From positions 2,790,001-2,854,000 of the forward strand of contig NC_089432.1 in assembly GCF_026210795.1 (NCBI RefSeq): a stretch of DNA of 64,000 nt, read 5' to 3'. A model generated the notes under the pieces. That model had not been told where the DNA came from, searched no databases, and saw only the letters and a list, made by a program, of their open reading frames with translations. Position numbers and translations under genes: made by a program. The stretch comes from Rhizophagus irregularis (lineage: Eukaryota; Glomeromycota; Glomeromycetes; Glomerales; Glomeraceae). Positions 3,307 to 60,953 of the stretch are shown in pieces (positions within the stretch are counted from its first letter, which is position 1; every line of letters begins with the position of its first letter).

Positions 3307-4023
3307 TAGGGATGGTTAGGTCGGTCCTGGTCCGGTCCTGGTCCTGGGACCTATAAGTCCTATTGAACGAACCTGCGGACCAGGTCCTGTTAGGACCAGT
3401 CCTGGACCTGGTCCCAGGACCTGGTCCTGACTAAGTTATTTATAGATTTTATGAATTTTAGTAATAATTAAATATTAAAAAAGTGAGTTGCGATATCGGG
3501 ATTCACTTTTTTATATTGATTTTATATAAAAAAAGTGAGTTGCGGTATCGGGATTCACTTTTTTATATTGATTTTATATAAAAAAAGTGAGTTGCGGTAT
3601 CGCGATTCACTTTTTTATATTGATTTTATATAAAAAAAGTGAGTTGCGGTATCGCGAGTCACTTTTTTATATTGATTTTATATAAAAAAAGTGAGTTGCG
3701 GTATCGCGATTCACTTTTTTATATTGATTTTAATATAAAAATGTGAATCGCAATATCGCAACTCATTTTTTATATGATTTTAATAATATAAAAATTGTAT
3801 TGCAATATTGCAGTGCACTTTTTTATAATTTATAATTACTTAAAATCAAATTTACAGCAAATTATACATATATAATTTAAACATATAGGTCTCTTATAAC
3901 CTTATTGGCTAGGACTTTTTAGGACCTGGTCCGCTTCTGGTCCAAAATTTGGACCTAAAGATCTGCAGACCAGGTCCTAGGACCAGGTCTTTAGGTCCAG
4001 GACCTAGGACTTTACCATCCCTA
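3307..4023. mobile_element. hAT-type MITE, 717 bp, 8-bp TSD
   Basis: The termini are TAGGGATGGT (3307-3316) and its inverse ACCATCCCTA (4014-4023), flanked by a perfect 8-bp duplication ATTATCAC (3299-3306 and 4024-4031). An 8-bp target duplication with TAGGG-type ends is the signature of hAT elements. Subterminal regions are packed with GGTCC/GGACC motifs. There is no transposase frame, so it is non-autonomous. The centre holds a 52-bp palindromic tandem repeat. Confidence 0.9.
3481..3740. repeat. 52-bp palindromic tandem repeat inside the hAT MITE
   Basis: Five units with an exact 52-bp period start at 3481, 3533, 3585, 3637 and 3689. Each has the core AAGTGAGTTGCGGTATCG followed by its imperfect inverse ending in TCACTTTTTT, so every unit can fold into a hairpin. 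One or two diverged copies in the inverse sense follow up to about 3820. Confidence 0.9.
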
Positions 4024-6776: not shown

Positions 6777-8164
6777 ATCCCAACATCTTTTCATTAATTA
6801 AGTCGATATAACATTATGGTGCAATTTTGTCGTTTATTTCAGGTCTAATTCCATTACATATTTTTAATGCCAGAACCCCATCATGGGCACAATCATCAAA
6901 AGGTTGCCTTCTAGTTGCTATAACATACATAATCATACCAAAGCTATATATATCTGCTGCTTGAGTATAAGGTTTTCCTTTTAATACTTCAGGAGCTATA
7001 TAAGGTATAACTCCATAAATACTTATCATCAATTTTTTTACTCCCATATCAGAAATACATGCAACATAATCAATAGACTCATTATTTTCATTATGATACT
7101 GATCAAATTTTGTAAATTTTGTAAATAATATATTTCCAATATGAAAATCACGATGAACCATCTGTTTTTGATAAGGATGGTCAGTCGGTCTTTCGGTCCT
7201 GGACGGTCCTGCCCGGTCTTTGGGAAAGTTATAAGGAATGCACCCTTGAATTTTAAGGCGCAGCAAGTATGGCTAAAGACCAATAAATGTCAAAATTTGG
7301 CCTTTATACTTCTTTTTTTAAGACCAGCAGAGGCGAAATTGGAAAAAGACCGAAAAAAGCAAAAAATACTGGTTTTGGCAAAATAAAAACCTGCCTAGCT
7401 CTAAATTGGGTGATTAGATTGAGACCAAAATTTACCACTTTTTGGTCTTTAATCAGTTCTGTTGTGCTACAAAAAATTGGAAGCACAGCCTTATTACTTT
7501 TCCAAAAATTTCCTAAAGACCGATCAGGACCGATCAAAGACCGCAGGACCGACTGACCATCTCTAGTTTTTGATGAATTTTATTAAGTCCTTCAATAGTA
7601 TTAGTTAATACACTTAATTCATTAAATCAATCAAAAACTTCATACTTTTTATTTAAATAACTATTGAAATCTCCACCTTCTGCATATTCAATAACCATAA
7701 TATAATCATTTGTAGTTGGATTTTTAAATTATAAAGAAATTTCATACCTCATTTATAAATTCACCAAGGAAATTTTGTGAATTATGTAAACATTTTAAAG
7801 CAACTTTTGTATTTGATTCTCTTTTCCATTTATAATCAAGACTCATTCCAGGTCCTATATTACAATAGGATAATAAACCATCATTCCATATTACCGAATA
7901 TACTGTAGAGAAACCACCTTTACCAATTTCTTTAATATCATTAAACTGATCATATGGTATCCATTCAAATATCATACCAGAATCACTAGAATTATGATCA
8001 ATATTTAATTTTATTTCTTGAATTAAATCACTAATTTTGTTATTTTCATGATTTGTTTGACATGACATACAACTTTTATTATTTAATTCAAACTGATTAT
8101 TGTATTTTTTGCTACAGTTTTCACAATAATATTTACATTGCGGCGGATTTATGAAATTTGGCAA
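6777..8164 (-). pseudogene. TKL-like protein kinase pseudogene
   Basis: Minus-strand pieces of one zinc-ribbon kinase. The first exon piece (8164-7742) has a zinc ribbon (YYCENCSKKY ... KSCMSCQTNH), a WIPYDQF motif, a Gly loop (IGKGGFSTVYS) and the VALKCL lysine, and ends FINEV at a donor. The rest has IMVIEYAEGGDF, a catalytic loop (MVHRDFHIGNIL), SDMG in place of DFG, and YIAPEVLKGKPYTQAADIYS. Lesions: most of the second exon before the hinge is missing; a TGA replaces an expected Trp (about 7640); a 394-bp MITE sits in the codons before VHRD; and an in-frame TAA after NDKIAP (about 6812) is followed by a frameshift that ends near 6777. A second MITE cuts the 5' end. Not translatable as a kinase. 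Confidence 0.85.
7172..7565. mobile_element. hAT-type MITE, 394 bp, inserted in kinase catalytic loop
   Basis: Ends TAAGGATGGTCAGTCGGTC and the inverse of TAGAGATGGTCAGTCGGTC, with a perfect 8-bp duplication GTTTTTGA at 7164-7171 and 7566-7573. The subterminal GGTCC/GACCG motifs relate it to the 3307-4023 element. No transposase frame is present. Removing the element plus one duplication copy leaves the kinase frame continuous over the insertion site, so the site was coding when hit. Confidence 0.9.
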
Positions 8165-8439
8165 AAACCCTGGTGCGCCCTCGGGAATTAAAATTGACTT
8201 ACAGAAACATTAAGCCTTTTTTTCTAAAAAATGTCAAATATGACGCACCTTTAACACTGGAAAAATTGGTTAGGTAACGGAAAAATTGGTTAGACGCAAG
8301 ATTTGGGGTACAAAAAATTTTTTAGGGCTCATTTTGACCGTTCACTAATAAATTTGGGAAATTTGGTGACTGAAAGACTGTCAAATATTTATTTAATTTG
8401 ACATGACGGACAAATTTAGGGTATTTCATAAATCCGCCG
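8141..8439. mobile_element. 299-bp inverted-repeat element in kinase locus
   Basis: A perfect 17-bp terminal inverted repeat, CGGCGGATTTATGAAAT at 8141 and its inverse ending at 8439. Only TG flanks both sides, so the target duplication is 2 bp or unresolved and the superfamily is unclear. It lies between a hinge-exon fragment and the zinc-ribbon exon of the pseudogene. Confidence 0.75.
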
Positions 8440-8995
8440 TGATGAGTATAAAAACTAGAACAAAATCTCTTGTATTTGGATTTTGAGATACTCCATAACT
8501 TTCCTCAACTGAATATAAGATCTATTAAAATATAAAATCAATATATTATTTTCATTAATAATTAAATTAAATTAAATTTTCAAAAAAACTTCATGCCTCA
8601 TTTAAAAACGCGTGATTAATATTTTGTGAATTATATAGATATTTTAATAAAATCTTTTCATCTGATTCCCTTTTGTAATTCCTTCTTATTTTGCTATAAT
8701 ATAATGGTCCATCCTTCCATATTGCTGTAGCAAAGACACTATTTTCTATTTCTTTAACATCAATAAACTTATTGTATGGTATCCATTCAAATATCATATC
8801 ACCATATTCATTGAGTTTTAATTGCATCTTTTTGATGAAGTCATCAATTTTCTCATTTCCACTAGTCCAGTCTGCAAAATCATTTTTTAAACGATTCATT
8901 TCACGTGATTTACACCAATTATTATAAGCATTCTCGTCATATTTGTTTTCACATTTTAAACAATAATGATTAATATAATTATTATTAAAGACCAA
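8440..8995 (-). pseudogene. kinase first-exon cassette, decayed copy
   Basis: 8995-8591 (minus) encodes a zinc ribbon (HYCLKCENKYD ... NWCKSRE), a WTSGNEKIDDFIKKMQ motif and EWIPYNKF. The Gly-rich loop is then destroyed (KEIENSVFATAIWKDG) and the VALK lysine region reads ILLKYLYNSQ. It ends at a FLNEA donor-like site. The next fragment (about 8530-8440) is the start of the following exon, up to the kinase hinge (SYGVSQNPNTRDFVLVF). The loss of the glycine loop and the missing rest of the domain make it non-functional. Confidence 0.75.
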
Positions 8996-9195
8996 AATAT
9001 AATCTCTTGTATCTGGATTTTGAGATATTCCGGAGACTAGAAATATGATTTAACCTATCAAATACAAAAAATCAAAAATTAATCTTATATTGTATTTAGT
9101 TTAAATAAATAAAAATTCAAATACCTTATTTAAAAATTCGTCAGTAATTTCTTGTGAATTATTTATATATTTTAAATAAACTTTTTCCTTATGTT
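8996..9195 (-). pseudogene. third kinase cassette remnant
   Basis: Minus strand at about 9050-8996 reads SGISQNPDTRDYILVF, a kinase hinge exon, and runs without a break into the zinc-ribbon exon of the copy at 8995. About 9190-9120 encodes the end of a first exon (VYLKYINNSQEITDEFLNKV) followed by a donor. This is the third head-to-tail repeat of [first exon end + hinge exon start] in this locus. Confidence 0.65.
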
Positions 9196-9673
9196 AGACT
9201 ATTATTTCAAGTTATTTTCGTATTAGGTTAATACCCGAACCAATTTTGATATATACTCGTTTGATTTTGTATTTTTGTATCAATGTTAGAATATAAGAAT
9301 GAACCTATTTTGAAATATTTCTATTAATTATTTGTTCAATTTATCGAATGGTATTTGTATGTTATCGTTATACGAATTCAACGTTAAATAAAGTCACACG
9401 TACTGTACATTAAAAAAAAAATTTTCAAATTGATAAAATTTTCGAATAATTTGTATCACTCGGTTGAAAATTAATAGGACTCAATATTGTACGACTTAAC
9501 TGTTATTTAATGATTGCGTAATTTGTATTACACAAAAAAAAAAGGAAAAATATTTCCCGACATAATTAAGGCAAAAAATATATAATTGGTGAAGATCAAA
9601 TTTTAGGTAACATTAAATTTATATATAAAGTTCCCATTCACGACATTTTTTCTTTTTTATATTTAAAAAAAAA
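9196..9673. other. upstream region of the BTB gene
   Basis: AT-rich spacer that should hold the promoter of the plus-strand gene starting at 9674. A poly-A/T-rich stretch precedes the ATG. No specific motif could be assigned. Confidence 0.35.
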
Positions 9674-12151
9674 ATGGATGGTAATAAATTATTACGAAAA
9701 TTATCACAAAATTTACTTGAAGTTTTAGATGATGGCGAATATTACGATATTATGATTGAAGTTGGTGATGGTAAAACTCACGCAAAAATATTTCGTGCTC
9801 ATATGGCCATATTAAATTATCGTTCTCCTTATTTACGAGAAATTTTATTTGAAAATAAATGGAAGAATTATGATGGAACTTTAGTACGAATTGAATTACC
9901 AAATATTTTGCCGGAAATTTTTCAAGTAATTTTAAGGTATTAAAAAAAAATATATTATTTATGCATTTTATAATCATATAATTTTTTTTTTTAATCGTGA
10001 ATGATTTTTTTTATTTATTTAGATATATTTATGGAGGGAAGTTAACTTTGAAAAATTATGATAATTTATATATAATTAAATTATTGATTGCTGCTAATGA
10101 ATTAAGTATTAAGGAATTGGTTATTTATATACAATTATTTTTGATTAATAACAGAGCAAATTGGTTGGAACAAAATTTTTATTTGATATATCAGACAATT
10201 TTTGAAAGTTATTCTTTCTTAGAACTTCAAAATTATTGTAATAATTTAATGTCAAAAAATCCGAATAAGATATTCGAATCATTAGATTTCCCTTCAATTC
10301 CAGAAAAAATTTTTATTTCGATTATTCAAAATGATAATCTTCAAATGGATGTAGTTCAAATATGGAAAAATGTTCTTAAATGGGGTCTTGCACAAAATCC
10401 GGAGCTTTCTTCAGAACCTCTTAGTTATTCAAAAGATGATTTTAATAATTTAAGGAATACCTTAGAACAATGTATTCCTTTTATTAAATTTTATGATTTA
10501 ACTTCTAAAGAATTTTCGGATAATATATTACCTTATAGGAAAATTATACCAGAGGAATTATATTTGGATTTATTACAAAGCTTTTTAAATTTACACCCTG
10601 ATAGCAAATTAAATATATCAAAACCTCATATGGTTAAAGAAATTAATCCTTCTCAACATAATATAAATAAATCGATAGAAATATTTAATCCTGCACCTTT
10701 TAGCAGAACTAATAAACGTCGTGTTAGAAGATATAGACAGGTATTTTTAATGACTTTTATGATTTTATCAAGAAATATATTTTATTTTTTAAGTTTGATT
10801 TATGAATCGCTTATTAATATTTTTTTGAAATTATATTTAGAGGTTAAAGAAGGTAAATTTTTCAAATTCTCCAAAGAAATTAATTTACGTCCAATTAATA
10901 TTTTGAATTAATTTTGAATTTTTTTTTCTTTTTTTTTTTTAATCACATATAAAGATTTTTTCCCAGATTGACAGTGAAAATTGTAGTCGTGGTTTTGGTC
11001 GTGGTTTTGGTCGCGGTCGCGGTCGTGGCGGTCGTTTTGGTAGAGGTCGTGATGAAGGCGATGAAGGAGAGGTATTGATTTAATTTTATCACGAAATAGA
11101 TTTATATATATATATGTTATTTTGAAATTTATGATCAAACATTTTTTTTTTTAATCACGTATAAAGATTTGTTTTCGTGGTGGTTACGGTCGTGGTCGTG
11201 ATGAAGGAGAGGTATTGATTTAATTTTATCATGAAATAGATTTATATATATATATGTTATTTTGAAATTTATGATCAAATTTTTTTTTTTTTAATCACGT
11301 ATAAAGATTTTTTCCCAGATTAACAGTGAAAATTGTAGTCGTGGTCGTGGTCGTGGTCGTGGTCTTGGTCGTGGTCTTGGTCGTGGTCGTGGTCGTGGTG
11401 GTCGTGGTTACGGTCGTGGTCGTGATGAAGGAGAGGTATTGATTTAATTTTATCACGAAATAGATTTATATATATATGTTATTTTGAAATTTATGATCAA
11501 AATTTATTTTTATTGCTTTATTTTAAAAGACGCCTATAAATTATAGTTCATGGGATAGAGTAGTACTTGTAAGAGATACATGGAATACTGAAGAGCATTT
11601 AAAGTATACATGGGAGAAACCTACGAAGGATGCATGGGACTTCACATTGGATGGTTCTGCAGGTGAATGGGGTGAAACGCCAGTAGCGCCGCAGTCTGCA
11701 GGTGGATGGGGTGAACTCATTGAAGAACCAGAAGCAGGTGGATGGGGTGAAGAGCCAGAAGCGTTGCAGTCTGCAGGTGGATGGGGTGAAGAGCCAGAAG
11801 CGCCGCAGTCCGCAGGTGGATGGGGTGAAACGCCAGTAACGACAGCTACAGGTGGGTGGGATGAACTCATTGAAGAGCCAGAAGCGCCGCAGTCTGCAGG
11901 TACTGCAGGTAGTTTGGATGATACGCAAGTAGCGCCGCAATTTGTGGATGATGTGAAAACATCTATTTCTAGTGATTATGTTTCTGGACGGAGTACAGAA
12001 AAGGTAACTATAAAAATATTTATTAAGTATTTTATATTTAATTTAAAATTCATGAATATAATTTATCTTTTACGACAAGGATCCTCAGAGTAGCACGATT
12101 ATTGAGAATAGCAATACGAAAAAGAAAAAAAACAAAAAAAAGAAAGTATAG
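9674..12151 (+). CDS. BTB-BACK protein with RGG and WG repeats, seven exons
   Basis: Proposed exons: 9674-9936, 10023-10740, 10967-11071, 11167-11211, 11319-11435, 11530-12003, 12080-12151. Every junction is GT/AG, and after exon 2 all are phase 0 with exon lengths divisible by three, giving 597 aa. Residues 15-105 are a BTB/POZ domain (YYDIMIEVG, FRAHMAILNYRSPYLREIL, VILRYIYGGKL) and about 115-250 a BACK-like helical region. Residues 328-416 are Arg-Gly-rich (RGRGRGG, GRGRDEGE repeats). 417-574 carry six Trp motifs in repeats (GGWGEEPEA, GGWGELIEE) after four more Trp. The last exon ends in a Lys/Asn run. BTB domains dimerise or bind Cullin-3; RGG segments bind RNA; WG/GW repeats can act as Argonaute hooks. 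A role linking them is inference. Reading through intron 2 instead gives a 383-aa BTB-BACK form stopping at 10911 with a hydrophobic tail. Confidence 0.7.
10941..11529 (+). repeat. threefold tandem exon-intron duplication (RGG exons)
   Basis: Three successive blocks share the acceptor context AATCACGTATAAAGATTT, an RGG exon ending GATGAAGGAGAG, and a near-identical intron starting GTATTGATTTAATTTTATCA. The first and third exons both begin with (C)CCAG then ATTRACAGTGAAAATTG; the middle one uses the earlier AG and is only 45 nt. All exons are phase 0-0, so copies can be gained or lost without changing frame. Confidence 0.85.
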
Positions 12152-32930: not shown

Positions 32931-33263
32931 TGTAACACAAAAAGAATAAACAAAAGGTGATTACAGTAGTAATACCTAAGACAAAATGATCAACCAGTAC
33001 TGCGATTTCGTGCTTGTACTTGTGATCAATGCTTTTGCGCATAATATAAATATTGTTACCATATATACCTATCTTTATAATAAAGGCGTTTAATAAAGAA
33101 AAGAAAAAAAAATATTTACATTATCTTTTCCAGTCACAGAGAATTTTAATATAATTATATAGTAATGACTCACAGTAATGATAAGGGTAATAATTATATA
33201 TAATATATAGCATATAATTAGAACTCTAAAATTTTTAACAAATTTGCAATGCAATAAAATTAG

Positions 33264-33305
33264 TTTCCAAAGAATTTGAAGGAAGTAGTACCGAGGAATC
33301 TAAAG
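33264..33305 (+). other. candidate coding exon before the microexon array
   Basis: Between an AG at 33262-33263 and a GTATAT donor at 33306 lies a 42-nt stretch reading SKEFEGSSTEESK with one leftover G (phase 1). Its homologue on the minus strand at about 44355-44308 reads EESEINSIKESE and also ends in one leftover G before GTATATT. Conservation of the reading frame, the acidic composition and the donor position supports a real exon. It could be the tail of a kinase-like protein or the 5' part of the gene at 36390. Upstream exons were not identified. Confidence 0.45.
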
Positions 33306-36300
33306 GTATATTAAACTAGCTGAAATATTAAATTTTTATTTGTAAATAATTTAAATACTATCAATAATTGTACCTTATATTATATAAAAATTATATTAAA
33401 TAATTTAGCTCGTAAGTTAATAGGTTATATTATAATTGAATAATAATGGAATTACTTAACATTTCTATTACATTTCATATAACTCATTAAATAATTAATA
33501 ATACTATAGTTGGTAAGTTATTAGTTATTTAAATCTTTAGTTTTTGCTTTATTTATTTTACATATTATTCAATTAACTAATTCTTTATTTAATAAATAAC
33601 TATTTAATATTGTATTACAGAAGGTAAGTTAAACTATCATATTTATTTGTTTAATATTTTATATAATTCAACTGATTATATTCTTAATTTAAATAACCAG
33701 ATTGTAAGTGATATTTAATTTGCAGTAAATATTTTTGTAATGTATTTATATCTAACTAATAATTAATTAACAATACTAGGGTGTAAGTTATAAATACATA
33801 TATTTTATATTATTTATATAATTTAAACTAATTAAATTCTTTATTTAAAAAATTATTTTATAGGTGGTATGTTATTTATTTAATTCTATTATTACTGATT
33901 TATATAATAATTACATATAATTTAAACTAACTAAATTCTTTATTTAAAAAATTATTATACAATCCAATATAGAGAGTAAGTTATTTATTTAATTATTTTA
34001 TTAATTATTTATATAATATTTGCATAAAATTTAAACTAACTAATTTTTTTATTTAAAAAATTATTGAATAACAATATAGAGAGTAAGTTATATTTATTTA
34101 ATTCTATTATTACTTATTTATATAATATTTATATATAATTTAAACTAACTAATTTATTTATTTAAAAAATTATTAAACATATAGAGAGTAAGTTATTTAT
34201 TTAACTATATTATTACTTATTCATATAATATTTACATATAATTTAAACTAACTAATTTTTTATTTAAAAAATTATTTTGTAATTTATTTTAGTTAGTAAG
34301 TTATAAGTTATTTATTTAATTTTATTATTACTTATTTATATAATATTTATATATAATTTAAACTAACTAAATTCTTTATTTACATAGTTTGTAAGTTATA
34401 AGTTATTTATTTAATTCTATTATTACTTATTTAACATTTATATATAATTTAGACTAACTAAATTCTTTATTTAAAATATTATTTAATTATATAGGGCGTA
34501 AGTTATTCTATTTTTACTTATTTAAATAATATTTACATATAATTTAAACTAATTAAATTCTTTATTTAAAAAAATTATTTTATAGATGGTATGTTATTTA
34601 TTTTATTCTATTATTACTTATTTATATAATAGTTATATACAATTTAAACTAAATTCTTTATTTAAAAAATTATTTTATAGATGGTATATTATTTATTTAA
34701 TTCTATTATTACATATTTATATAAGATTTACATATAATTTAAACAAATTCTTTATTTAAAAAATTATTTTACAGATGGTATGTTATTTATTTAATTCTAT
34801 TATTACATATTTATATAACATTTACATATAATTTAAACTAACTAAATTCTTTATTTAAAATATTATATAATAATACAGGGTGTAAGTTATTTATTTAATT
34901 TTATTATTACATATTTATATAATATTTACATATAATTTAACTAACAATTCTTTATTTAAAAAAATTATTTTATAGATGGTATGTTAGTTATTTACTTAAT
35001 TTTATTATTACTTATTTATATTATATATACATATTATTTAAAATGACTAAATCCTTTGTTTAAAAAATTATTTTATAGATGGTATGTTATTTATTTAATT
35101 CTATTATTATTACTTATTTATATAATATGTATTACATATACTAATTTAAACTAACTAAACTCTTTATTTAAATAGTTTGTAAGTTATAAGTTATTTATTT
35201 AATTCTATTATTATTTATTAATATAATATTACATATAATTTAAACTAACTAAATTCTTTGTTTAAATAGATTGTAAGTTATAAGTTATTTATTTAATTCT
35301 ATTATTACTATTATTACTTATTTATATAATATTTTATAATTTAAACTAACTAAATTCTTTATTTAAAAAATTATTTTATAGTTGGTATGTTATTTATTTA
35401 ATTCTATTATTATTTGTTTATATAATATTTACATATAATTTAAACTAACTAAATTCTTTATTTAAAAAATTATATAATATAGGGCGTGAGTTATTTATTT
35501 AATTATATAATATTTATATATAATTTAAACTAAATTATTCTTTATTTAAAAATTATTTTATAGTTGGTATGTTATTTATTTAATTCTATTATTATAATAT
35601 TTACATATAATTTAAACTAACAATTCTTTATTTAAAAAATTATTTAATAATATAGGGTGTAAGATATTCTATTATTACTTATTTATATAATATTTACATG
35701 TAATTTAAACTAACTAAATTCTTTATTTAAAAAATTATTTAATAATATAGGGCGTAAGTTATTTATTATTACTTATTTATATAATATTTACATATAATTT
35801 AAACTAACTAAATTCTTTATTTAAAAAAATTATTTTATAGATGGTATGTTATTTATTTAATTCTATTATTACTTATTTAGATAATCTTTAAATGTAATTT
35901 AAACTAACTAATAAACTCTTTATTTAAAAAATTATTTTATAGATGGTATGTTATTTATTTAATTCTATTATTACTTATTTATATAATATTTATATACAAT
36001 TTTAAACTAACTAAATTCTTTATTTAAAAAATTATTTTATAGATGGTATGCTATTTATTTGATTCTATTATTACTTTATTTATATAATATTTATATATAA
36101 TTTAAACTAACTAAATTCTTTATTTATAAAAATTATTTAATAATGTAGCTCGTAAGCTATTTGTTGTTTCTATTGTTATATTTTATATAGTATTTATTTG
36201 TTGATTGAATTCTTTCATTTAAATTTCTGTTACTTTAGTTGGTAAGTCGTAGGTTATTATTATATATTTTACAAAAACTAATGCCGTATATTATATTAAA

Positions 36301-36389
36301 TTTCTTCTTAAATTTAGAGTAAGTGTTGATTTTAATACTGTAACTTTTAATGTAAACTTTAATATAATTACAATTATTCAAATTTATAG
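33306..36389 (+). repeat. tandem intron / 3-nt microexon array (~31 units)
   Basis: Thirty consecutive sites have the form AG-NNN-GT, with exactly three bases between a consensus acceptor and a consensus donor. The first triplets start at 33409, 33510, 33621, 33701, 33780, 33864 and 33973, and the last at 36043, 36149 and 36239. A final AG-A-GTAAGT follows at 36318. Donors are GTAAGT-like (18), GTATGT-like (10), GTGAGT (1) and GTATAT (1). Most spacers carry ACTAACTAAAT or a related branch-site motif about 30-40 nt before AG. Spacers are 76-109 nt, normal fungal intron size. Triplets: ATG x8, TTG x4, GGT x3, GGC x3, AGA x3, CTC x2, TTT x2, ATT x2, and AAG, GTG, TTA once each. Spacer indels are frequent, but the AG-NNN-GT block never changes length. 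Confidence 0.85.
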
Positions 36390-37559
36390 ATTTGGAAAAA
36401 GTGGAAATATAAATATGGATAATTTTATTTTGAAAAACAAATTAAAATGGATTCCTTATGATAAATTTAAAAATGCTGAATATCTTGATAAAGGAGGATT
36501 TGGTACTATATATAAAGCTAATTGGCTAAATAATAATGGATATAAAGAAGTAATTCTTAAATGTCATAATAATTTAAATGAAAATTTAAATGAGTTTTTA
36601 AATGAAGTATGATAATATATTATTTACTTTTTAGATTAAATATCTAAATTATAATTTATTTATACTAATACATTATTATTTTTTTATAGTGGAAATATCA
36701 CAAAAGTTGCTTAAGTTCAGATAAAATTATTTATTTTTATGGATTTACAAAAGATCCTAATACTTTGAAATATATGGTAGTAATGGATTGTGCAAATAAA
36801 GGTAATTTAAGAGGAAACTTAATGAGAGTAATCAAAAAAAAATGGAGTCAAAAATTATATATGTTATATGAAATTATTTCTGGACTTAATAATATACATG
36901 AACAAAATCTTATTCATTGTGATTTTCATGATGGCAATATTTTAGATCATAATTATGAAGATAATGATAAAATTTATGTTAGTGATTTAGGTTTATGTCG
37001 ACCTGTAAAATCATTTTTGAAAGAGCATAGTATTTATGGTGTATTACCATTTATGGCACCTGAAGTTTTAAGAGGCAAATCTTATACTCCAGCTAGTGAT
37101 ATTTATAGTTTTTCTATGATTATGTGGGAATTTACATCTGGTATACCACCATTTAACGATAAAGCACATGATATCCAACTTAGTTTAAGTATTTGTAAAG
37201 GTGAACGTCCTGAAATTATTGAAGATACTCCACAATGTTATGTAGATTTAATGAAAAGGTGTTGGGATGAAGACTCATTAAATAGGCCATCTTCTAAAGA
37301 AGTTTTAAGTATTATTGAAAATTGGATTTTTCGTTCTTCAGATAAGAAAATTAAAGATATTAATGAAGAATTAAAATACAATATTATGGAATTTATAAAT
37401 GCGCCAATTGGGCATAACAATAATCTTTCTAATGAGTCTCATCCACAGGCATATAATACAAGTCGCTTACTTGGTTTTACTAGTAAAGAATTGAATGAAA
37501 TTCTTGAAAGTAAAGATTCACCAGATTTGGATGATTGTATAGTTTTATTAGGTGTGTAA
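36390..37559 (+). CDS. TKL-like protein kinase, 5' end linked to microexon array
   Basis: Exons 36390-36606 and 36690-37559, GT/AG borders, one frame. An ATG exists at 36415, but the frame is open to the acceptor at 36389. The upstream codons read FGKSGNINMDNFI, which aligns with the WTSGNxDIDKFI motif of sister kinases, so translation probably starts further upstream. Kinase motifs: GGFGTIY Gly loop, VILKC (ATP-anchoring Lys), LIHCDFHDGNIL (HCD, so a non-RD kinase with the catalytic Asp kept), SDLG for DFG, MAPEVLRGKSYTPASDIYSF, and RCWDEDSLNRPSS. The tail has HPQAYNTSRLLGFTSKEL, as in sisters. A donor-like GTGTGTAA at 37551 and an AG at about 37628 could add a short last exon (DTKTVCFYKNL). 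It probably phosphorylates Ser/Thr; partners unknown. Confidence 0.75.
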
Positions 37560-38833: not shown

Positions 38834-40943
38834 TTATTCATTTAATTTATATTTAGCATTTTGATATCCTTGTTCAGCAGATTTTTTAAACAAACAAATT
38901 GCTTGACTTATATCTTTTTTAATTCCCATTCCATCTTTATAAAAAAAAGCAAGATTATATTGAGCCAAATAATTTCCTAAATCTGTAGCCTTTTTATATA
39001 ATTCAAATGATTTCTGATAATCAATATTAGTTCCAATTCCTTTTTTATAACACCATCCTAAATTACATATTCCAAGTAAATTTCCTAAACTTGCTGACAT
39101 TTGAAATAATTCAAATGCTTTTTGATCATTAATAAGAACCCCAATTCCATAAAGATAACAATTTCCTAGATTATAAAGTCCACGTGCACTTTCTAAATTT
39201 GCAGCCTTTTGATAAAATTCAAATGCTTTTAGTTGATTAGCAAAGGTTCCAATTCCTTTTTCATAACAATAACCTAAACTAGTTATTCCAAATGTATTAT
39301 TTAAATTTGAAGACTTTTGATATAATTCAAATGCTTTTTGTTCATCAACATTAATTTCAATTCCAAAATAATTAAATACTCCAAGTAAAAAAATAGAATC
39401 AGAATTTTCCTGATTATTAAGTAACCAATTATAAATTTCTTGTGAGGATACATTATGATTATCAAGATATTTAACAACTTTACATTTTCTCATTTTTATT
39501 TCTATATTTTCAAAAAGAGAAATTATTTCAACAACCATTATTTCAAAATCATTCATGATTAGATCTGATGAAATTGAAGGATCTATTTCATTTATATCAA
39601 TCCTACTAAAATTTTGAATAATTTGAGATATTTGTAAATTATTATTAATTACGTTTTCAGAAATTTCATTATAATCGTTTAATTGAATTTCTGAAATAAT
39701 TGTATTTAATTTCATAACAACCTGATTGATAGTTGGACGATTATCTGGTTCATTATTCCAGCAATCTAAAATATAATAAAATAAACTTTTATAAATATTG
39801 TTATTTTAAAATAATATATAATAATTAAATTTAATTAGTATATTTACCAGTATATATTTTTATGTAATCTTTAGGTGTATTGAGAGTGGGCTTCTCTCTA
39901 AGACCTTGTAATATTTCCATAGCCAAACCAACATCATATGGCTCATTACAAAAAGGTGGACGTCCACTAGAAATTTCCCATAAGAGTATGCCAATACTGT
40001 ATATATCACTCTTTTTGCTTAATGTATATATTTGTAATTGATTATTGCTATCTCTTCTATTAAAAATTTGTGGATCGATATAAGTAACCATTCCGAACAA
40101 TTTTGATTGAACATTAGATAATTCTTCAATCCTTTCTGATAATCCAAAATCAGTCAATTTGATGGTATTCTTATTAACTAATATATTATTTGAGTGCTAT
40201 TATTAAATATAATATGTATTAGATACTATAATCTTGCAGTATAATTTAATATAATATAAATTTAATAAATAACCTACCAAATTACGATGTACGATTTCTT
40301 TATCATGTAAGTATGATATTGCATTAGATAATTGAAATGCCAAATTTAATTTATCATTCCAAGTGAGGTTTTCAAAGTATTCACTTAAATAGTATCGAAG
40401 GGTACCATTGTCGGCATATTCCATCACTAACAAATATCTTTTTGAATCATCACTTTGGATTTCTTTTGAAAGAAAAAAAAATTATTTTAGATTTTTTTTC
40501 ATATGCGTATAATATGTATATATTTTTTAAAAATATTTGTAATATCGCACCTGATGTAATACCATAAAAGCGAATTATATTTTCATGAAAATCCATTTCA
40601 CGATGAAGTTTAAGCTAAAAAATAAATGAAATTATAAATTAGAAACATAATTTATTATAATACTTCATAAGAAATAAATACTAATAATCATATAAATTAC
40701 TTCATTAACAATTTCTTTGGTAATGGTATCAAAATTAAAAAAAAGTTTTAACGCTAAATAATTATGAGAATTATTCCAATTTGCACGATATACTTTTCCA
40801 AATCTTCCAAGACCAATTCCTTGAATATTATTAAAATATTTATAATCATAATATTTAATTTGTTTTTTTACAATAGATTCTTCAATCCAATTAATCCACT
40901 CCTTTGAATTATCAATAAATTTAATTTCAGTGTTATTAGACAT
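38834..40943 (-). CDS. kinase-like (pseudokinase) + Sel1 repeat protein, five exons
   Basis: Exons (minus): 40943-40701, 40614-40551, 40462-40278, 40196-39848, 39765-38834. Phases 0,1,0,1, no stop, 590 aa. N-terminal kinase fold: IGLGRFGKVYRANW, LALKLFF lysine, FYGIT, YLLVMEYADNGTLRYYL, then IVHRNL where the catalytic Asp is Asn (N163). DFG is kept (D180), YIDPQIF replaces APE, and SDIYSIGILLWEISSGRPPF follows. Residues about 390-590 are Sel1-like repeats (KAFELYQKSSNLNNTFGITS and relatives, five or more units), superhelical scaffolds for protein binding. Loss of the HRD Asp suggests a catalytically weak or dead signalling scaffold. The same exon phases occur in the three sister genes of this window. 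38487-38833 upstream on this strand is plain spacer. Confidence 0.85.
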
Positions 40944-42303: not shown

Positions 42304-43854
42304 ATGGAACCCGAATTTAGTAAATTAAATATCTCAGGTGGAAATTCTAATTACAAAAATTGTTCATATTGTAATAATCCCTTTACTGAAGAATTATGGT
42401 GTAAAGAATGTGACCCATTTAGAATAATGGAAGGATGGACCAGCGGAAATTCTGATATTGATAAATTTATAAAAGATACAATGTGTAAGCCGAAAAATTA
42501 TAGTCGTGATTATGATAATTATTCATTTCTTGAATGGGTACCATTTGATAGATTTACAGATATAAAAGAAATTGGTGAAGGTGGATTTTCCAAAGTATAT
42601 TCTGCAACTTGGATTAATGGTAAATCATATTATGACGAAAAAAGTGATGGAAGTTGGAAAAAATTAGAACCTGAATCTATGGAAATTGCTTTGAAAAGGT
42701 TAAATGGATCACAGAATATGTCAGATAAATATTTAAATGAAGTACGTTTTTATACTATTTTGTATCTTATTTAATTTATTTCATTTGGGTGTTTAATAGT
42801 ATTAAATTATTTTATTTTAAATTTATTAAAATATAGCTTAAAATACATTGGGAAATTTCTAACAAAAGTGGATTATCATTTTATGGATTAACTAAAGACC
42901 CAGAAACTAAAGAATTTATGATGATTATAGAATTTGCTAGTAAAGGAAATTTGAGAAATGTTCTTTCAAATAACTTTAGTAACATTATGTGGGAATGTAA
43001 AATTAAATATTTAATGTATATATTAGTTGACTTAAAACAATTACATAAATTAGGATATTGCCATAAAGATTTTCATAGTGGGAATATTTTACAAACTGTT
43101 GTTACTTTTATTTCAGACTTCGGATTATCTGGACCAGCAAATGAACAAAAATCAGATGATAAAGTAGTATATGGAGTAATGCCATATATTGCACCAGAAG
43201 TCTTAAACGGAGAACCATATACATCATCATCCGATATTTATAGTCTAGGTGTAATTATGGCTGAATTATCATCAGGAAAACCACCTTTTTACAATAAAAA
43301 ACATGATTTAAGTTTAGCATTAGCCATATGTAATGGACTCAGACCAGAATTTGGAAAAGGAACTCCTGAATTTTATAAGAAATTAGCTTATAAATGCATG
43401 AGTGCCAATCCAAATGAAAGACCAGCAGCTGAAGAATTAAAAAAAATATTTGGTTTCTGGGATAGTTTTATTACAGGTAGTGAAAATAATAAAGAAAAAT
43501 ACGGTTATAAAGGAAAAGAAATTAAAGCAGCATTTGAAGAAGCTGATAAAGAAATACCAAACATCTCAACTTCGTATGAAAAGAATTCTGATGCTGTATA
43601 TACCAGTAGAGCGTTTACATTTAGCGATTTATTACCAAAACCCGTTAATTCATCCATTATTACTTCATATGTTAATAATGAAGGTATTTTCTATTTTATT
43701 TAAAAATTTTATTTTTACTTGAATAATTATTAATTTTATTATTTCAATAGTTAGTGACTCTCAATTAATCGACTTGGAAGTGTCTAATTCAATACAATTA
43801 AAAGGCACTATAGATATTGACGATGAAAGTAAGATTGATTATTTAGTGAATTAA
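42304..43854 (+). CDS. zinc-ribbon TKL-like protein kinase, three exons
   Basis: Exons 42304-42741, 42837-43683, 43751-43854, GT/AG, unbroken, 462 aa. The N-terminus has a CxxC...WCxxC zinc-ribbon-like segment (CSYCNNPFTEELWCKEC) and WTSGNSDIDKFIKDT, then EWVPFDRF. Kinase core: IGEGGFSKVYSATW, IALKRLNGSQ lysine, FYGLTKDPETKEFMMII, CHKDFHSGNIL (HKD), ISDFGLSGP, YIAPEVLNGEPYTSSSDIYS, and KCMSANPNERPAAEELKK. The tail has DAVYTSRAFTFSDLLP and a short acidic last exon (VSDSQLIDLEVSNSIQLKG). All catalytic residues are present apart from Arg to Lys in HRD, so it is probably active. The start is the only Met before the zinc ribbon. It serves as the intact reference for the decayed kinases at 6.8-9.2 and 13.1-15.4 kb. 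Confidence 0.9.
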
Positions 43855-50706: not shown

Positions 50707-52969
50707 TTATTCTTGTAGGTTTTCTAATTTAATTTGAGCATTTTGAAATCCTTGCTTAGCAGATTGTTTATACCAATAAATGGCTTTATTTATATCTTTT
50801 TCAACTCCATTTCCTGATTCATACAATAAGGCAAGATGATACTGAGCATCGTAATTCCCTAAATCAGCTGCTTTTTTATATAATCCAAATGCCTTTTTTA
50901 TATCAACATTAGTTCCAATTCCAAGATTATAATAACATCCTAATAGAGATATTCCGAATAAATATTTCCCTTCTGCTGATTTTTTAGCTAATTCGAAAGC
51001 TTTATCAAAATCTATTTCAACACCTTCTCCAAATTCATACATCAAAGCAAGGTTATATTGAGCTTTTGGATTTTCTAAAATTGTTGCCTTTTGATATAAT
51101 TCAAATGCCTTTTGCATATTGATTTCAGTTCCAATACCACTACAATAACAATACCCTAATAAATTTAATCCACCCAAGAGCCCAATTTCTGCTAATTTTT
51201 TAGATAATTCAAAGGCTTTTTTATAATTTCTATCACAAACTTCTCCATCTTTATACATATAAACAAGTTTTAATTGAGCCATATTGTTTTCTAATACTGC
51301 AGCTTTTTCATAAAGTTCAAGTGCTTTTTCCTTATTAATATCAGTTACAATTCCATGATAATTAAAATATCCAAGTAAATAAATAGAATTTGAACAATCT
51401 TGATTAATTAAAAGCCAATGGTAAATTTCTTGTATACTAATTTTGCAATCATCAATATAACCGAAAGCACTTTCCCTACATACACTTTCTTCTATTCCTT
51501 CATTTATTTCCTTAAAATAAATATTAACAAATTTATCAATTATGATACTTAAATCTTCTTCAAATATGTTTTCGTGAATTTGTTGTATTGTAGGTTCTAT
51601 TTCGATCATATGAGACAATTTTCCATATCCATACAATAAACAATCATTAGTATCCGATCGAATAACATTGCTTGAATTAAATAATTGGGTTGACTTTGTA
51701 ACCATTGCTCTTAATTTATAAATCACTTGTCTCATTGTCGGTCTTTTATTTGGTTCATTATTCCAACATTCTAAAAAATTAAAAAGCAGTGTATTACGTT
51801 ACATAAAAATTAAGATTTTAATATTAAATTGATATTAATGTAAAATTATAAATATAAAATTATATTTACCAGTATATAAATTAGAATAATCAACGGGAGT
51901 ACCTAAAACGTTTGTTTCTCTGTAACCCTGTAAAATTTTCTTAATTAAATTAGCATCATTTGATTCGTCTTCAAATGATGGTCGACCACTTGATATTTCC
52001 CATAGAATCATTCCAAAAGCGTAAACATGGCTCTTTTCATTTAATGAATATGATTGTATTAATTCATTATTGTCATTTAACCTTTTTGGGTCGATATAAA
52101 GAATTTTATCAAATGAACCTGATTGGTTTTCAGAAACTCTTTTGATTCTATTTAATAATGTAAAATTGGCTAATTTGATGGTTTTCTGATGAAAAAAAAT
52201 ATTCCCAGGGTACTAAAAAAAAATAAAATTTTTTAATTAATATTTATTTATTTTAATGAATTTAACGAAATAAATAAATTACCAAATCATGATACGCAAT
52301 TCCTTTATCATGTAAAAATAATATAGCACATGCTAACTGGTACGCCAATTCATATTTGTCCTTCCAAGTAAGATTATTAAAATTTTCTTTCAAATAATCT
52401 CGAAGGGAACCACCGTTAGCATATTCCATTACTAATAAATATTCTTTCATTTGACCATTTTGATTTTCTAAAGGAAATAATAATTATTATAATTTATCAA
52501 ATTAGTAAACATATTTTAAAAAATTTAATCCAAAATCTTTTAATTATTTATAATATTTTATACCTTTATCAGTAATTCCAAAAAAGTTAATTAAATTATT
52601 ATGAAAATTAACTTTACTTTGAAGTTTAAACTAAATTATGAATAAAATATAATTAAAAAATGATAAATTGCTATATAATGTTTTCAATATTAAAATATTA
52701 TAGACCAAGATATAAAATAAACCAAGATAATATTTTATTTATATAATTACCTCATGAATGAGTTCTTCTTTTAAAATGTCATTGTCAATAATATTAAAGG
52801 ACTTTAATACAAAATGTTGTTCCGAATTTTTACAATTTGCACGATAAATTTGGTTACCAATTTTCTCAATATTATAAAAATTTTCATATTTGTAATACTT
52901 AATATTATTTACTAATATAAAATCTTCAACCCAATTAATTAATTCATTTGAATTTTTGGTGGTTTTCAT
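50707..52969 (-). CDS. pseudokinase + Sel1 repeat protein, five exons
   Basis: Exons (minus): 52969-52751, 52630-52564, 52467-52283, 52212-51870, 51770-50707. Phases 0,1,0,1 as in the sister genes, unbroken, 625 aa. The N-terminal kinase fold is degraded at motifs. The Gly loop is shortened to EKIGNQIYRANC (the GxGxFG core is missing). The lysine is kept in FVLKSF. HRD reads YHD (IAYHDL). DFG reads NFT (N173-F174-T175), so the metal-binding Asp is lost. SHVYAFGMILWE replaces SDVYSFG. Residues about 375-625 are Sel1-like repeats (KALELYEKAAVLENNMAQLK, KAFELAKKSAEGKYLFGISL and so on, about six or seven units). The open frame over five exons, despite these changes, argues for a retained non-catalytic role in protein-protein contacts. 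52970-53663 upstream is plain AT-rich spacer. Confidence 0.82.
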
Positions 52970-54977: not shown

Positions 54978-57108
54978 ATGTCTAATAATAACAATATTAA
55001 CATTAACGAAATACAAAGTGAAGAAAATATAAAAGAATGTATTAATTGGATTGAAGAAGCTCTTACTAAGGAATATTTTAAATACTACGAATTCGAAAAT
55101 TTTAAACATATTCAAGAAATTGGTTCCGGAACATTTGGAAAAGTTTACCGTGCAAATTGGAAAAATTTTGAACATTATTTAGCGTTAAAATCTTTTTTTA
55201 AGCCCAGTAATATCACCATAAAAGAAATTGTTAATGAGGTAAATTTATTGAAATACATAAAATAAAATATTTTATCTTTTCTTAATAATAATTATTATAC
55301 ATTCACAATTTAGCTTAAACTTCAACGAGATGTAAATTTTCATGCCAATATTATTCGATATTACGGAATTACAAAACTTGAATCAGGTATTTGATAAAAT
55401 ATTTAATAATTATAATTAAATTATATTAATTTAAACTTTTTTTTTTTTGCAAAATCTAACAAAAATTTTATTTCCCTTTTTTTTTGTTAGAAAATAAAAT
55501 TGATCAAACAAAAAATTATTTGTTGGTTATGGAATGCGCAGATGGTGGTACTCTTCGAGATTATTTGAAAAATAACTTTAATAGACTTACCTGGAAACAT
55601 AAATATAACTTGGCTTACCAATTAGCTTGTTCTGTATCATTTCTGCATGATGAAGGGATTGTTCACCGAGACTTGGTAATCTTTTTATTTAATATAAAAC
55701 GATAATATGTTTATTTCATAAAAGCTAATTTGCCTTTATTTGTACTAGCATTCCTGTAATGTGTTGGTTCATCAGAATTCCATCAAGTTGGCGGACTTTG
55801 GGCTATCAAAAAGGATTGACGAGGCATCTAATTCAAAATCAAAATTACTTGGTATGGTGCCCTATATTGATCCAAAAATATTATTGTTCAACAATTTAAA
55901 ATTAAATGAGAAGAGCGATGTATATAGTATTGGCGTATTGTTATGGGAAATATCAAGTGGGAACCCACCATTTCATGAAGAATCAAATAAGTCTAGTTTA
56001 ATGTATGAAATTTTGTATGGTCGAAGAGAAAAGATTATTCCTAATACTCTTAATGATTATTCTAATCTCTATACTGGTAAATATAATTTCAATATATTAA
56101 ATATAACATTTTTTCTTACTATTCATCAAAATAATTATTTAGTCAAATTATTATTATTAATTATTAGAATGTTGGAAAGGTAAACCAAACAATCGACCAT
56201 TCATGCATGAAGTTGTTGATAGGTTAGAAAATTTTATTTCAAATTTAAATAGTGATATTTCATCCGAGAATTCAAGCATAATAGTTAATGAAATAATTGA
56301 TCTCATTTTTAAGGAAGTTAATAAAAGAAATGTGTCAAAACCACATGTTCTTGATTATATTACTAATCATAGTATAAATTCAAAAGAAATTTATAATAGG
56401 TTATTAAATAATCAAAATACTCCGAATTTCATTTTTTTACTTGGATATTTTAATTATGTAGGAATTGAAACAATTAAGAATCATGAAAAAGCATTTAATT
56501 TATTTATAAATGCATCTGAAGAGGGTCATATGTTAGCAAAATATTTGGTTGGACATTGTTATGAATTTGGAGATGGAATTATAAGAAATGATAAGCTTGC
56601 TTTTGAAAATTATGAAAAATTGGCTAATAAAGATTATGCAATAGGACAATTTAAATTAGGTTGGTTTTACAAAAATGGATTAAGTGTTAAAAAAGATTCA
56701 AAATTAGCTGTATATTGGTATGAAAAAGCTGCAAATAATGGAAATTTGATAGCTATGTCTAATCTTGGCCATTCATATAAAGATGGAAATGGTGTTAATA
56801 AAGATAACCAAAAAGCTTTTGAATTATTTAAAAAATCAGCTGAAGGAGAATTTTCAGGTGGAATAATGATGTTAGGATATTGTTATGAACTTGGTATTGG
56901 AATTGATATTGATAAGCAAAAAGCAGCTGAATTATACCAAAAAGCTGCAAATTTAGGACATAAGGCAGCACAATATAATCTAGCATTGATGTATGAAAAA
57001 GGAAACAGTATTGAAAAAGATTTGAATAAAGCAATTTATTGGTATGAAAAATCTGCTAATCAAGGAGATAAAGATGCTCAAAATAAATTAAACATACTCA
57101 AAATTTAG
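54978..57108 (+). CDS. protein kinase + Sel1 repeat protein, five exons
   Basis: Exons 54978-55238, 55314-55386, 55491-55675, 55749-56076, 56168-57108. GT/AG, unbroken, 595 aa. Kinase motifs are complete: IGSGTFGKVYRANW, LALKSFF lysine, YLLVMECADGGTLRDYL, IVHRDL (D172), LADFGLSKRI (D189), YIDPKIL in the APE position, SDVYSIGVLLWEISSGNPPF, and CWKGKPNNRPFMHEV. From about residue 380 a Sel1-like repeat array (FNLFINASEEGHMLAKYL, AVYWYEKAANNGNLIAMSNL, AAELYQKAANLGHKAAQYNL and others, six or more units) forms the C-terminal half. It is presumably an active Ser/Thr (TKL-like) kinase with a protein-binding solenoid. It is the intact partner of the tandem duplicate at 58674. Confidence 0.9.
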
Positions 57109-58673: not shown

Positions 58674-60953
58674 ATGTCTAATAATAACAATATTAACGAA
58701 ATACAAAATAAAGAAAATACAAATGAATGGATCAATTAGATTGAAGAAGCTCTTACTAAAGAATATTTAAAATATTACGAATTTGAAAATTTTAAAAATA
58801 TTCAAGAAATTGGTTCCGGAGCATTTGGAAAAGTTTTCCGTGCAAATTGGAAAAATTTTGAACATTATTTAGCGCTAAAATCCTTTTTTAATCTTAATAA
58901 CATTACCGTAAAAGAAATTGTTAATGAGGTAATTTCTATTTGAATTTGCAATATTCTTCAATAATAATAATTTATTTTTGCGTATTATTTTTATATTTAT
59001 TGTTTTTTTTTTTATAATACATTCATAATTTAGCTTAAACTACAACGAGATGTAGATTTTCATGGCAATATTATTCGCTTTTATGGAATTACAAAATTTG
59101 AGTCAGGTATTGATAAATTATTAAAATAAAATTTATTTAATTAAATTTATTTTTTCTTTTTTTTGCAAAAACTAATAAAACTTTGTTTCTTTTTTTTGTT
59201 AGAAAATAAAATCGACCAAACAAAAAATTATTTGTTGGTAATGGAATACGCAAACGGTGGTACTCTTCGAGATTATTTGAAAAATAATTTTAATAGACTT
59301 ACTTGGACCGATAAATATAATTTGGCTTATCAATTAGCTTGTTCTGTATCATGTCTACATGACGAAGGGATCGTTCACCGAGACCTGGTAATCTTTTTTC
59401 TTAATATAAAATAATAATATGGTTATCATAGAAGCTAACAAGCCTTCATTTGTATAGCATTCCTGTAATGTGTTGGTTCATCAGAATTCTATCAGGTTGG
59501 CGGACTTTGGGTTATCTAAAAGGATCGACGAAGCATCTAGAACACGTTCAAAATTACTTGGTATGGTTCCCTATATTGATCCAAAAGTATTAATGAACAA
59601 CAATCTAAAATTAAATGAGAAAAGTGATGTGTATAGTATTGGCGTATTGTTATGGGAAATATCAAGTGGGAACCCACCATTTTATGAAGAGTCAAATAAG
59701 ATTGGTCTAATCTACGAAATTTCACAAAATCGAAGGGAAGAAATTATTCCTAATACTCCCAATGATTATTCTAATCTCTATACTGGTAAATATAATTTCA
59801 ATATATTAAATACTGTATAAACATTTTCAAAATAATTGTTTGATTAAATAAATATTATTAATTATTAGGGTGCTGGAATGGTGAACCAATCAATCGACCA
59901 AATATACATGAAGTTGTTAATAGGCTAAAATTCATTTCAAATTCTAGTAATAGTGTAACAACTTGTCAACAGAATGATATATCTAACCAAACTAATTCCA
60001 AGTTAAGTGAAATTCTAACTCCTAGTAGTACTATAATTTCATTACATGGAGAATTATCTCAAATGATCGAAAGTTTTAATAATATGAATACAAATGAAAT
60101 AGATATGATGACTAGTACAATTAAGCAAATTAATGATAATGTTTCATCTGAAAATTTAAGCATAATAGTTGACGAAATAGTTGATCTCATTTTTAAGGTG
60201 GGTAATAAGTGGAATGTGGTAGAACAGCATGTTCTTAATTATCTTAATAATCATAATATAAATTCAAAAGAAATTTATAATTGGTTATTAGATAATCAAA
60301 ATATTTCAAATTTCATATTTTTACTTGGGTTTTTTTATTATGCTGGAATTGAAACGATTAGGAATCATGAAAAAGCATTTAATTTATTTATAAATGCATC
60401 TGAAGAGGGTCATATATTAGCACAATATTTGGTTGGACATTGTTATGAATTTGGGGATGGAATTATAAGAAATGATAATCTTGCTTTTGAAAATTATGAA
60501 AAATTGGCTAATAAAGATTACGCAATAGGACAATTTAAATTAGGTTGGTTTTATGATAATGGATTATATGTTAAGAAGGATCCAAAATTAGCAGCATATT
60601 GGTTTGAAAAAGCTGTAAAAAATGGAAATTTGGTAGCTATGTTTAATCTTGGCATTTTGTATATAAATGGAAATGGTGTCGATGAAAATCATCAAAAAGC
60701 TTTTGAACTATTCAAACAATCAGCTGAAGGAGAAGATTTAGATGGAATCATGTTGTTAGGAGATTGTTATAATGATGGAATTGGAATTAATATTGATAAG
60801 CGAAAGGCAGCTGAATTATATCAGAAGGCTGCAAATTTAGGACATAAAGTAGCTCAATATAATCTTGCTACAATGTATGAAAAAGGAGGCGGCATTGAAA
60901 AGGATTTAGATAAAGCAATTTACTGGTATGAGCAATCTACTAAACATATATGA
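58674..60953 (+). pseudogene. kinase + Sel1 repeat duplicate with one nonsense codon
   Basis: Pieces 58674-58928, 59034-59106, 59203-59387, 59458-59785, 59869-60953 match the five exons of the 54978 gene in length and phase. The only interruption is TAG at 58737-58739 (codon 22), where the sister has TGG (WI in CINWIEEAL; here WIN then stop). All kinase motifs downstream are intact: IGSGAFGKVFRANW, IVHRDL, LADFGLSKRI, SDVYSIGVLLWEISS. The Sel1 repeats are open too, ending YEQSTKHI, slightly shorter than the sister. No in-frame Met precedes the Gly loop after the stop. Either a very young pseudogene, a null allele, or a sequence error at one base. Confidence 0.8.

Follow-up and report, generated by a model that had tools for sequence, protein, structure and literature searches.

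The analyzed stretch of the genome of the arbuscular mycorrhizal fungus Rhizophagus irregularis, a window of 64,000 nucleotides (nt) from contig NC_089432.1 (assembly GCF_026210795.1, positions 2,790,001 to 2,854,000 of the forward strand), carries a protein kinase gene in which two short upstream exons are followed by a 3.1-kb array of splice-site units and then by two exons coding for the kinase. The units are visible tandem copies. In 30 of them three bases stand between a splice acceptor and a splice donor (AG-NNN-GT), in the 31st (tttAG|A|GTAAGT) a single A does, and the array comprises 32 short introns. A preliminary description of this DNA, made from its letters, had reported 30 three-base blocks, and all were found (exon starts 33409 to 36239, 11 kinds of triplet, three bases in 30/30 triplet units, introns of 76-109 nt); the final intron is 71 nt long. 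Its count of about 31 introns was right as to the 30 triplet units but overlooked the 31st with its 1-nt exon. The donors, described there as good in each unit, were mostly strong, but that of the unit at 34681 is weak (ATG|GTATAT); GTATAT is also the donor of the gene's own exon 2.

After joining of all exons, a single frame of 1242 nt was obtained, running from the ATG at 33165 to the TAA at 37559 and coding for 413 residues. The product begins with a short acidic N-terminus, continues with 31 array codons and ends with the protein kinase (MTHSNDKVSKEFEGSSTEESK-ALEDWCEKKIIWHDDGYDVYFGLGWHDDALE-FGKSGN...-kinase). The N-terminus, MTHSNDKVSKEFEGSS, is hydrophilic in appearance, and the kinase part matched PK_Tyr_Ser-Thr (PF07714) with 134.7 bits (cut-off 23.1) over positions 4-256 of the 258 of the profile. 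Exon 2 ends in phase 1 and the first kinase exon (K1) starts in phase 2; the 30 triplets preserve phase 1, and the lone A makes the change. This one exonic base between two introns is, judged by sequence and frame, required: without it the frame meets a stop at codon 59, and with five nucleotides (AGTAA) in its place, at codon 53. Peptides like that of exon 1 open annotated relatives, e.g., P0003 (MALNNDKV...), and exons resembling exon 2 are present at several sibling loci.

Arrays of this type recur throughout the genome (146.7 Mb, 32 contigs), which was searched by splice-motif patterns. The two-unit pattern gave 1109 + 1140 matches, i.e., 2249 neighboring pairs, and the reversed-pattern controls gave none, which rules out a chance origin of AG-NNN-GT chains; the patterns were strict (ATAG, GTAWGT, spacer of 66-96), and only part of the units was counted. 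The pattern anchored at the array end (last triplet plus the 1-nt exon A) was found in 81 places. For at least 74 of them, comparison by eye with the lists of kinase exons gave a same-strand kinase match no more than 500 bp downstream, two more (L043, L044) have a kinase by direct reading, and for five no kinase was seen among the matches listed. The first-unit pattern, with up to two mismatches allowed, occurred in 50 places. A second array lies on the contig of the window, 63 kb downstream. Among 20 loci that were read, the array is followed by a kinase exon in 19; at the remaining one, L041r, no kinase exon was found after the array, and it was excluded from the parse.

The 19 arrays were parsed with a dynamic program that picks donors and acceptors, leaves exon length free between 1 and 60 nt and applies a mild penalty per exonic base, which favors short exons in general and not 3 nt over 1, 2 or 4. 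Training of the weight matrices used the first 14 loci; L053-L058 were fetched later by means of the first- and last-unit patterns and served as the held-out set. Earlier parsers, over-strict or choosing upstream AGs, were discarded, having cut chains short and called false exons 20-57 nt long. The arrays hold 12-86 exons each, with introns of about 96 nt. Among the 650 exons, 611 were of 3 nt, 19 of 1 nt and 10 of 6 nt; the others were of 7 nt (n = 1), 8 nt (n = 2), 9 nt (n = 4) and 20, 23 and 52 nt (one each). The three longest, kept within the 650, are probable parser errors, and the 7-nt exon overlaps a 3-nt alternative. Several parsed arrays contain long gaps, evidence that certain units have lost or altered their sites. 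In 19/19 arrays the 1-nt exon was the final one (A in 18, C in L049).

The 8- and 9-nt exons were all found in L049, where a block of approximately 1.7 kb recurs inside the array (5820-9310). G-rich units lie at 5820, 7537 and 9220, and the recurring block bears the 8-/9-nt exons (GGGAGGGG, GAGAGGGGG), the lengths of which differ by one G between copies.

If the triplets are joined in phase 1, each codon consists of the final base of one triplet and the first two of the next, and a triplet ending in T must not precede one starting with AA, AG or GA, although these letters lie ~95 bp apart in the DNA. Neighbors separated by an intron of 130 nt or more, which may hide a missed unit, were omitted from the counts. 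In the first 13 arrays no such stop occurred among 428 neighboring pairs, whereas shuffling of unit order within arrays gave 13.6 ± 3.0 (minimum 3 in 5000 shuffles); phase 2 of the same arrays had 85 stops versus 77 expected. Removal of near-duplicate pairs left 0/383 (13.2 expected). As a control for shared ancestry, the same sequences were examined at lags 2, 3, 4 and 5, where 12, 14, 16 and 9 stop pairs stood against 11.9, 10.2, 8.9 and 7.8 expected, i.e., without any avoidance. The six held-out arrays contained 0/121 (5.5 expected), and all 19 arrays together 0/549 (20.8 expected). T preceded AA/AG/GA in no case and AT/AC/GG/GT/GC in 72, the corresponding numbers for other bases being 90 and 211 (Fisher 2.6e-10). 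Both T before AT (24) and T before GG (45) were common, and the avoidance is specific to stops. Among the 2249 genome-wide pairs, 586 of which have a first triplet ending in T, T|AR was observed once versus 90.2 expected (586 x 346 / 2249; V|AR 345; nominal P 1.6e-48), T|GA being outside this count.

As parsed, 14 of the 19 arrays were open over the whole stretch between the final upstream-exon base and the kinase exon. In L039 the upstream exon was not recognized and the parse started at the first unit. L054 and L056 have no exon 2 (EFEGS), and their short ATG exons also end in ...G| in phase 1; the single TGA triplet of L056 is a stop in phase 0 and open in phase 1. The absence of stops between neighbors, and not at lags 2-5, makes it very probable that adjacent triplets are spliced together and translated consecutively. 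We hold with high confidence that the array is, as far as DNA can tell, a coding sequence divided down to one codon per exon, read in order and in phase 1, and the triplets would be included mostly constitutively. The proposal of the preliminary description that the units are real exons, each adding one in-frame codon, is supported by the avoidance confined to neighbors, by the frame that leads from the start codon through the array into the kinase and by the frame-restoring 1-nt exon at the end of 19/19 arrays. The features of the window are collected in Table 1.

Table 1. Exons of the array-bearing kinase gene, followed by other features of the window.
Feature	Position	Strand	Remarks
Exon 1	33165..33186	+	ATG ACT CAC AGT AAT GAT AAG G; start codon; MTHSNDK-
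Exon 2	33264..33305	+	VSKEFEGSSTEESK; EFEGSSTEESK; ends AAA G| (phase 1); donor GTATAT
Array	33306..36389	+	32 introns, 30 three-nt exons, one 1-nt exon
Microexon 1	33409..33411	+	CTC
Microexon 2	33510..33512	+	TTG
Microexon 3	33621..33623	+	AAG
Microexon 4	33701..33703	+	ATT
Microexon 5	33780..33782	+	GGT
Microexon 6	33864..33866	+	GTG
Microexon 7	33973..33975	+	AGA
Microexon 8	34080..34082	+	AGA
Microexon 9	34185..34187	+	AGA
Microexon 10	34293..34295	+	TTA
Microexon 11	34388..34390	+	TTT
Microexon 12	34495..34497	+	GGC
Microexon 13	34586..34588	+	ATG
Microexon 14	34681..34683	+	ATG; donor GTATAT is weak; left out by the parser; frame open with it and in the parse lacking it
Microexon 15	34775..34777	+	ATG
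Microexon 16	34879..34881	+	GGT
Microexon 17	34976..34978	+	ATG
Microexon 18	35079..35081	+	ATG
Microexon 19	35176..35178	+	TTT
Microexon 20	35270..35272	+	ATT
Microexon 21	35382..35384	+	TTG
Microexon 22	35483..35485	+	GGC
Microexon 23	35564..35566	+	TTG
Microexon 24	35656..35658	+	GGT
Microexon 25	35751..35753	+	GGC
Microexon 26	35841..35843	+	ATG
Microexon 27	35943..35945	+	ATG
Microexon 28	36043..36045	+	ATG
Microexon 29	36149..36151	+	CTC
Microexon 30	36239..36241	+	TTG
Single-nucleotide exon	36318..36318	+	A; phase 1 to phase 2
Kinase exon K1	36390..36606	+	FGKSGNINMDNF...; internal ATG = start of public protein P0001
Kinase exon K2	36690..37559	+	stop TAA; PK_Tyr_Ser-Thr domain
Sel1-repeat open frame	38837-39805	-	
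Sel1-repeat open frame	50710-51798	-	
Sel1-repeat open frame	56161-57105	+	
Sel1-repeat open frame	59862-60950	+	
Another protein-kinase exon	42837-43700	+	N-terminal part of the domain missing from the frame
Tandem repeat	3472-3827		52-bp unit x6.8, partly self-complementary (AAAAAAGTGAGTTGCGG...CGATTCACTTTTTT)
Hexamer array	11338-11424		GTCGTG
Repeats	11656-11885		39/75-bp units inside the 188-codon open frame 11527-12093

A remnant of the same family was noticed elsewhere in the window, on the minus strand between 43900 and 44400. An exon-2-like sequence (GAATCTGAGG|GTATAT) is followed there by AG-CTC, the donor of which carries AT in place of GT (CTCATAAGTTAATAGGTTAT), and by a second unit-like CTG|GTAGGC; the element is apparently a truncated family copy.

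Several observations weigh against the reading of the triplets as joined single-codon exons. One genome-wide stop junction was found (C4:4281150). The pairs are not independent, units and genes sharing ancestry, and the P values are nominal; the lag-4 excess of stop pairs (16 versus 8.9) indicates that dependence among pairs exists. Five of the 19 arrays (L044, L046, L049, L055, L057r) were not open as parsed: L055 opens when ATG|GTAAGT replaces the overlapping ATGGTAA|GTAAGT, L044, L046 and L057r have introns longer than 200 nt or long parsed exons, and in L049 the summed 8- and 9-nt G-rich exons break the frame. Units whose sites are weak can escape the parser, as happened once in the window; the parser also requires AG and GT, the full conservation of which is by construction. 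Single-unit skips in the window gene leave the frame open in 29/30 cases, so that stops cannot show constitutive inclusion in this gene. The public gene models are partly at odds with it as well. The kinase exons of the window match P0001 of R. irregularis DAOM 197198 with 100% identity (353 aa, 85% of the query), and the P0001 model ignores the array, beginning inside K1 at MDNFILKNK. P0013 holds runs that match the triplets of its locus in phase 0. P0041 (R. diaphanus), P0049 and P0113 contain low-complexity G/I/L/M/R stretches before SKFGKS or SKSGKS, which resemble arrays of triplets translated in a different phase; these peptides alone suggest the presence of arrays in R. diaphanus too. 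In the comparison of residues 1-60 of the window product with annotated proteins, there were two candidates, and nothing matched at E up to 10. In P0003 and P0025 the initial peptides resemble exons 1 and 2, and a few other residues, in place of the array peptide, lead on to the kinase.

The whole 3.1-kb region might alternatively be one long intron removed stepwise by recursive splicing, with the triplets absent from the final mRNA. The regular acceptor-donor pairs do resemble ratchet points, which also serve stepwise removal via an adjoining acceptor and donor, and exons this short are expected to be difficult to splice. Ratchet points, however, are zero-length exons (AG|GT) from which nothing is retained, whereas three bases lie between AG and GT in 30/30 window units. 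Direct joining of exon 2 to K1 (33305 to 36390), without the array and the 1-nt exon, shifts the frame and leads to a stop at codon 29, and the neighbor-stop avoidance (0/549; 1 versus 90 genome-wide) would be meaningless if the triplets were discarded. We regard recursive splicing as highly improbable. The same constraint bears on the view that a tandemly amplified intron retains inherited, unused splice sites and that translation begins at the internal ATG of K1. Tandem copies are indeed visible and P0001 starts at MDNFILKNK, but the triplet columns, flanked by conserved donor and acceptor positions, rank among the least conserved, the upstream exons (ATG and EFEGS) share a frame with the array and have counterparts opening relatives such as P0003, and the 1-nt exon is kept in 19/19 arrays. 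This view seems to us barely credible. Neither recursive splicing nor inherited unused sites predict a constraint on neighboring stops, and the constraint favors real one-codon exons.

Two further explanations accept the exons as real. Some public models appear to translate the triplets in phase 0, together with a 5-nt exon, AGTAA. This reading is consistent with the phase-0 runs of P0013, the kinase re-entry of which appears to fit the 5-nt exon, and with the near absence of phase-0 stop triplets (1/611). TAN and TGN triplets are almost absent altogether (0 and 1 of 611), so that what is lacking in phase 0 is not stops as such, whereas the avoidance in phase 1 is specific to them. Moreover, exon 2 of the window gene ends in phase 1 (AAA G|), the five nucleotides miss the kinase frame, and L056 contains a TGA triplet, all of which makes this explanation scarcely plausible. 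Selective use of the exons, variable skipping giving many protein lengths per gene and diversity at the RNA level, appears less remote, though unlikely. Skipping of any 3-nt exon preserves the frame, as the single skips in the window illustrate, but stop pairs at lag 2 were at expectation (12 versus 11.9), which means no detectable selection for openness of products lacking one unit, and most units have strong donors and acceptors.

The splice signals are in accord with serial joining of single codons. Donor positions +3 to +6 carried 1.5-1.9 bits and the three exon positions 0.18, 0.66 and 0.03 bits (481 units). CTAAC was present in 257/475 introns versus 10.6 after single-base shuffling, at a median of 37 nt before the acceptor. 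Each unit would represent a complete short intron plus three exonic bases, with a donor that is mostly GTAAGTTA or GTATGTTA and often a CTAAC-type putative branch site ~37 nt before a TAG acceptor. The introns would be recognized singly, by intron definition, in which case the 3-nt exon itself needs no recognition. With each intron removed, probably stepwise, the growing upstream exon would bear a new triplet up to the next donor, until the triplets and then the 1-nt exon had been joined serially in phase 1, linking the N-terminal exons in frame to the kinase. As the donor apparently uses little exon information, the triplet would be nearly free in what it encodes. Every cassette would supply both the splice signals and precisely one codon, so that its tandem duplication, loss or exchange would change the product in steps of entire residues.

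The encoded segment is hypervariable. In the middle of the array peptides (without the first six and last four residues) of 14 open arrays, median identity over 91 paralog pairs was 0.25, the same as for shuffled peptides (0.25), whereas the next 60 kinase residues were 0.68 identical in the same comparison. The ends are kept in most of them, with AL.DWF or similar at the start and (A/P)FE or ALE before FGKSGN. Among 428 array codons the leading residues are D, R, N, L, I, F, K and W. Within arrays, the introns flanking units with the same triplet aligned with scores per base of 0.59/0.62 on the two sides (487 pairs), compared with 0.38/0.47 for different triplets (4329 pairs; at most 300 sampled from any one array), which would be expected of a cassette in which intron and codon travel together. 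A variable segment placed on a kinase suggests a role in recognition or regulation, and the arrays likely serve as codon-modular hypervariable segments of signaling kinases.

A contiguous 48-nt exon (CTC TCA AAG ATG GCG CTG ATG ..., ALKDGADDDHNIEQRL) was noticed at L051 (1447-1494 of C15:1476001-1481500). It resembles an intronless array start and precedes an array; it was found at a single locus and has a weak acceptor. The parser omitted it, and as 48 is a multiple of three, the frame was unchanged. The exon may be a copy that lost its introns in a reverse-transcription-type event or may represent an older state; it fits codon joining and was not relied on. A microexon origin of the P0106 peptide was considered and rejected, its source being this ordinary exon.

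The arrays were compared with known systems. The micro-exon genes (MEG) of Schistosoma encode secreted proteins and have 10-20 very short exons of 6-81 bp (3-81 according to the abstract), mostly of 15 bp, and introns of 0.1-5 kb (PMC10526429). Like the arrays, they string together numerous very short exons with lengths mostly divisible by three (here 611 of 3, 10 of 6 and 4 of 9 nt among 650, with 19 of 1 nt), and both cause trouble to automatic annotation. The arrays differ in exons nearly all of exactly 3 nt, in tandemly related introns of about 96 nt (71-109 nt in the window gene), in the number of exons and in the position upstream of a kinase. The bicycle/megacycle genes of aphids, putative gall effectors, are a fast-diverging family with ~17 exons per gene on average, one gene having >100 microexons, and with many small internal exons nearly all in one phase (PMC9168663). 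The likeness lies in the many small exons of a fast-changing family, the difference in the organism and the domains. Bicycle-gene exons are small, yet larger than a single codon.

Single-nucleotide exons between two introns are present in the plant genes APC11 and VPS55 (PMC4674806, PMC8831610), and for APC11 intron definition plus stepwise splicing was proposed by the authors (PMC4674806). These exons are isolated, in single genes, whereas in the arrays the 1-nt exon sets the frame at the end of a chain of 3-nt exons. Drosophila homothorax has a 3-bp micro-exon (PMC7392893), a single alternatively spliced exon with no array. Fungal stwintrons are removed by consecutive splicing reactions and have propagated as similar copies; in them an internal intron splits a splice signal of the outer intron, unlike the array introns, which are complete, each with its own donor and acceptor, and would each leave a codon, the stop avoidance indicating that the 3 nt are kept. 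Introner elements are mobile introns, one and the same intron being inserted into unrelated genes; of the array loci read here, 19/20 have a kinase exon behind the array.

Among the best matches listed from the open-access PMC literature searched, which included no preprints and few subscription papers, chains of single-codon exons were not described. The retrieved portions of the 2023 genome paper on DAOM 197198, in which long RNA reads were used (PMC10234402), and of a 2024 study of mycorrhizal SP7-like effectors do not mention them. According to the genome paper, Nanopore and Illumina RNA reads of the strain exist. Such chains could be a new category of gene structure; it is also arguable that they are an extreme variant of micro-exon genes. 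We know of no more finely divided coding sequence.

If the reading of the arrays as chains of single-codon exons is right, public models can misstate the N-termini of this family, as P0001 does, and standard aligners would tend to miss such exons. One-codon exons would then exist in long chains across a gene family, beyond rare exceptions, and would test the limit of intron-definition splicing, with dozens of sites three bases apart and nearly no exon information. They would also show how introns can turn into modular carriers of one codon each and so generate protein diversity. Tentatively, and short of an even chance in our estimate, the arrays may act as a codon-level diversification device on >70 signaling kinases, in which recombination among tandem cassettes adds, removes and reorders single residues with the frame left intact. 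The outcome would be a hypervariable recognition segment with many D, R, N, W, Y and H residues, perhaps for self/non-self or partner sensing in this hyphae-fusing fungus.

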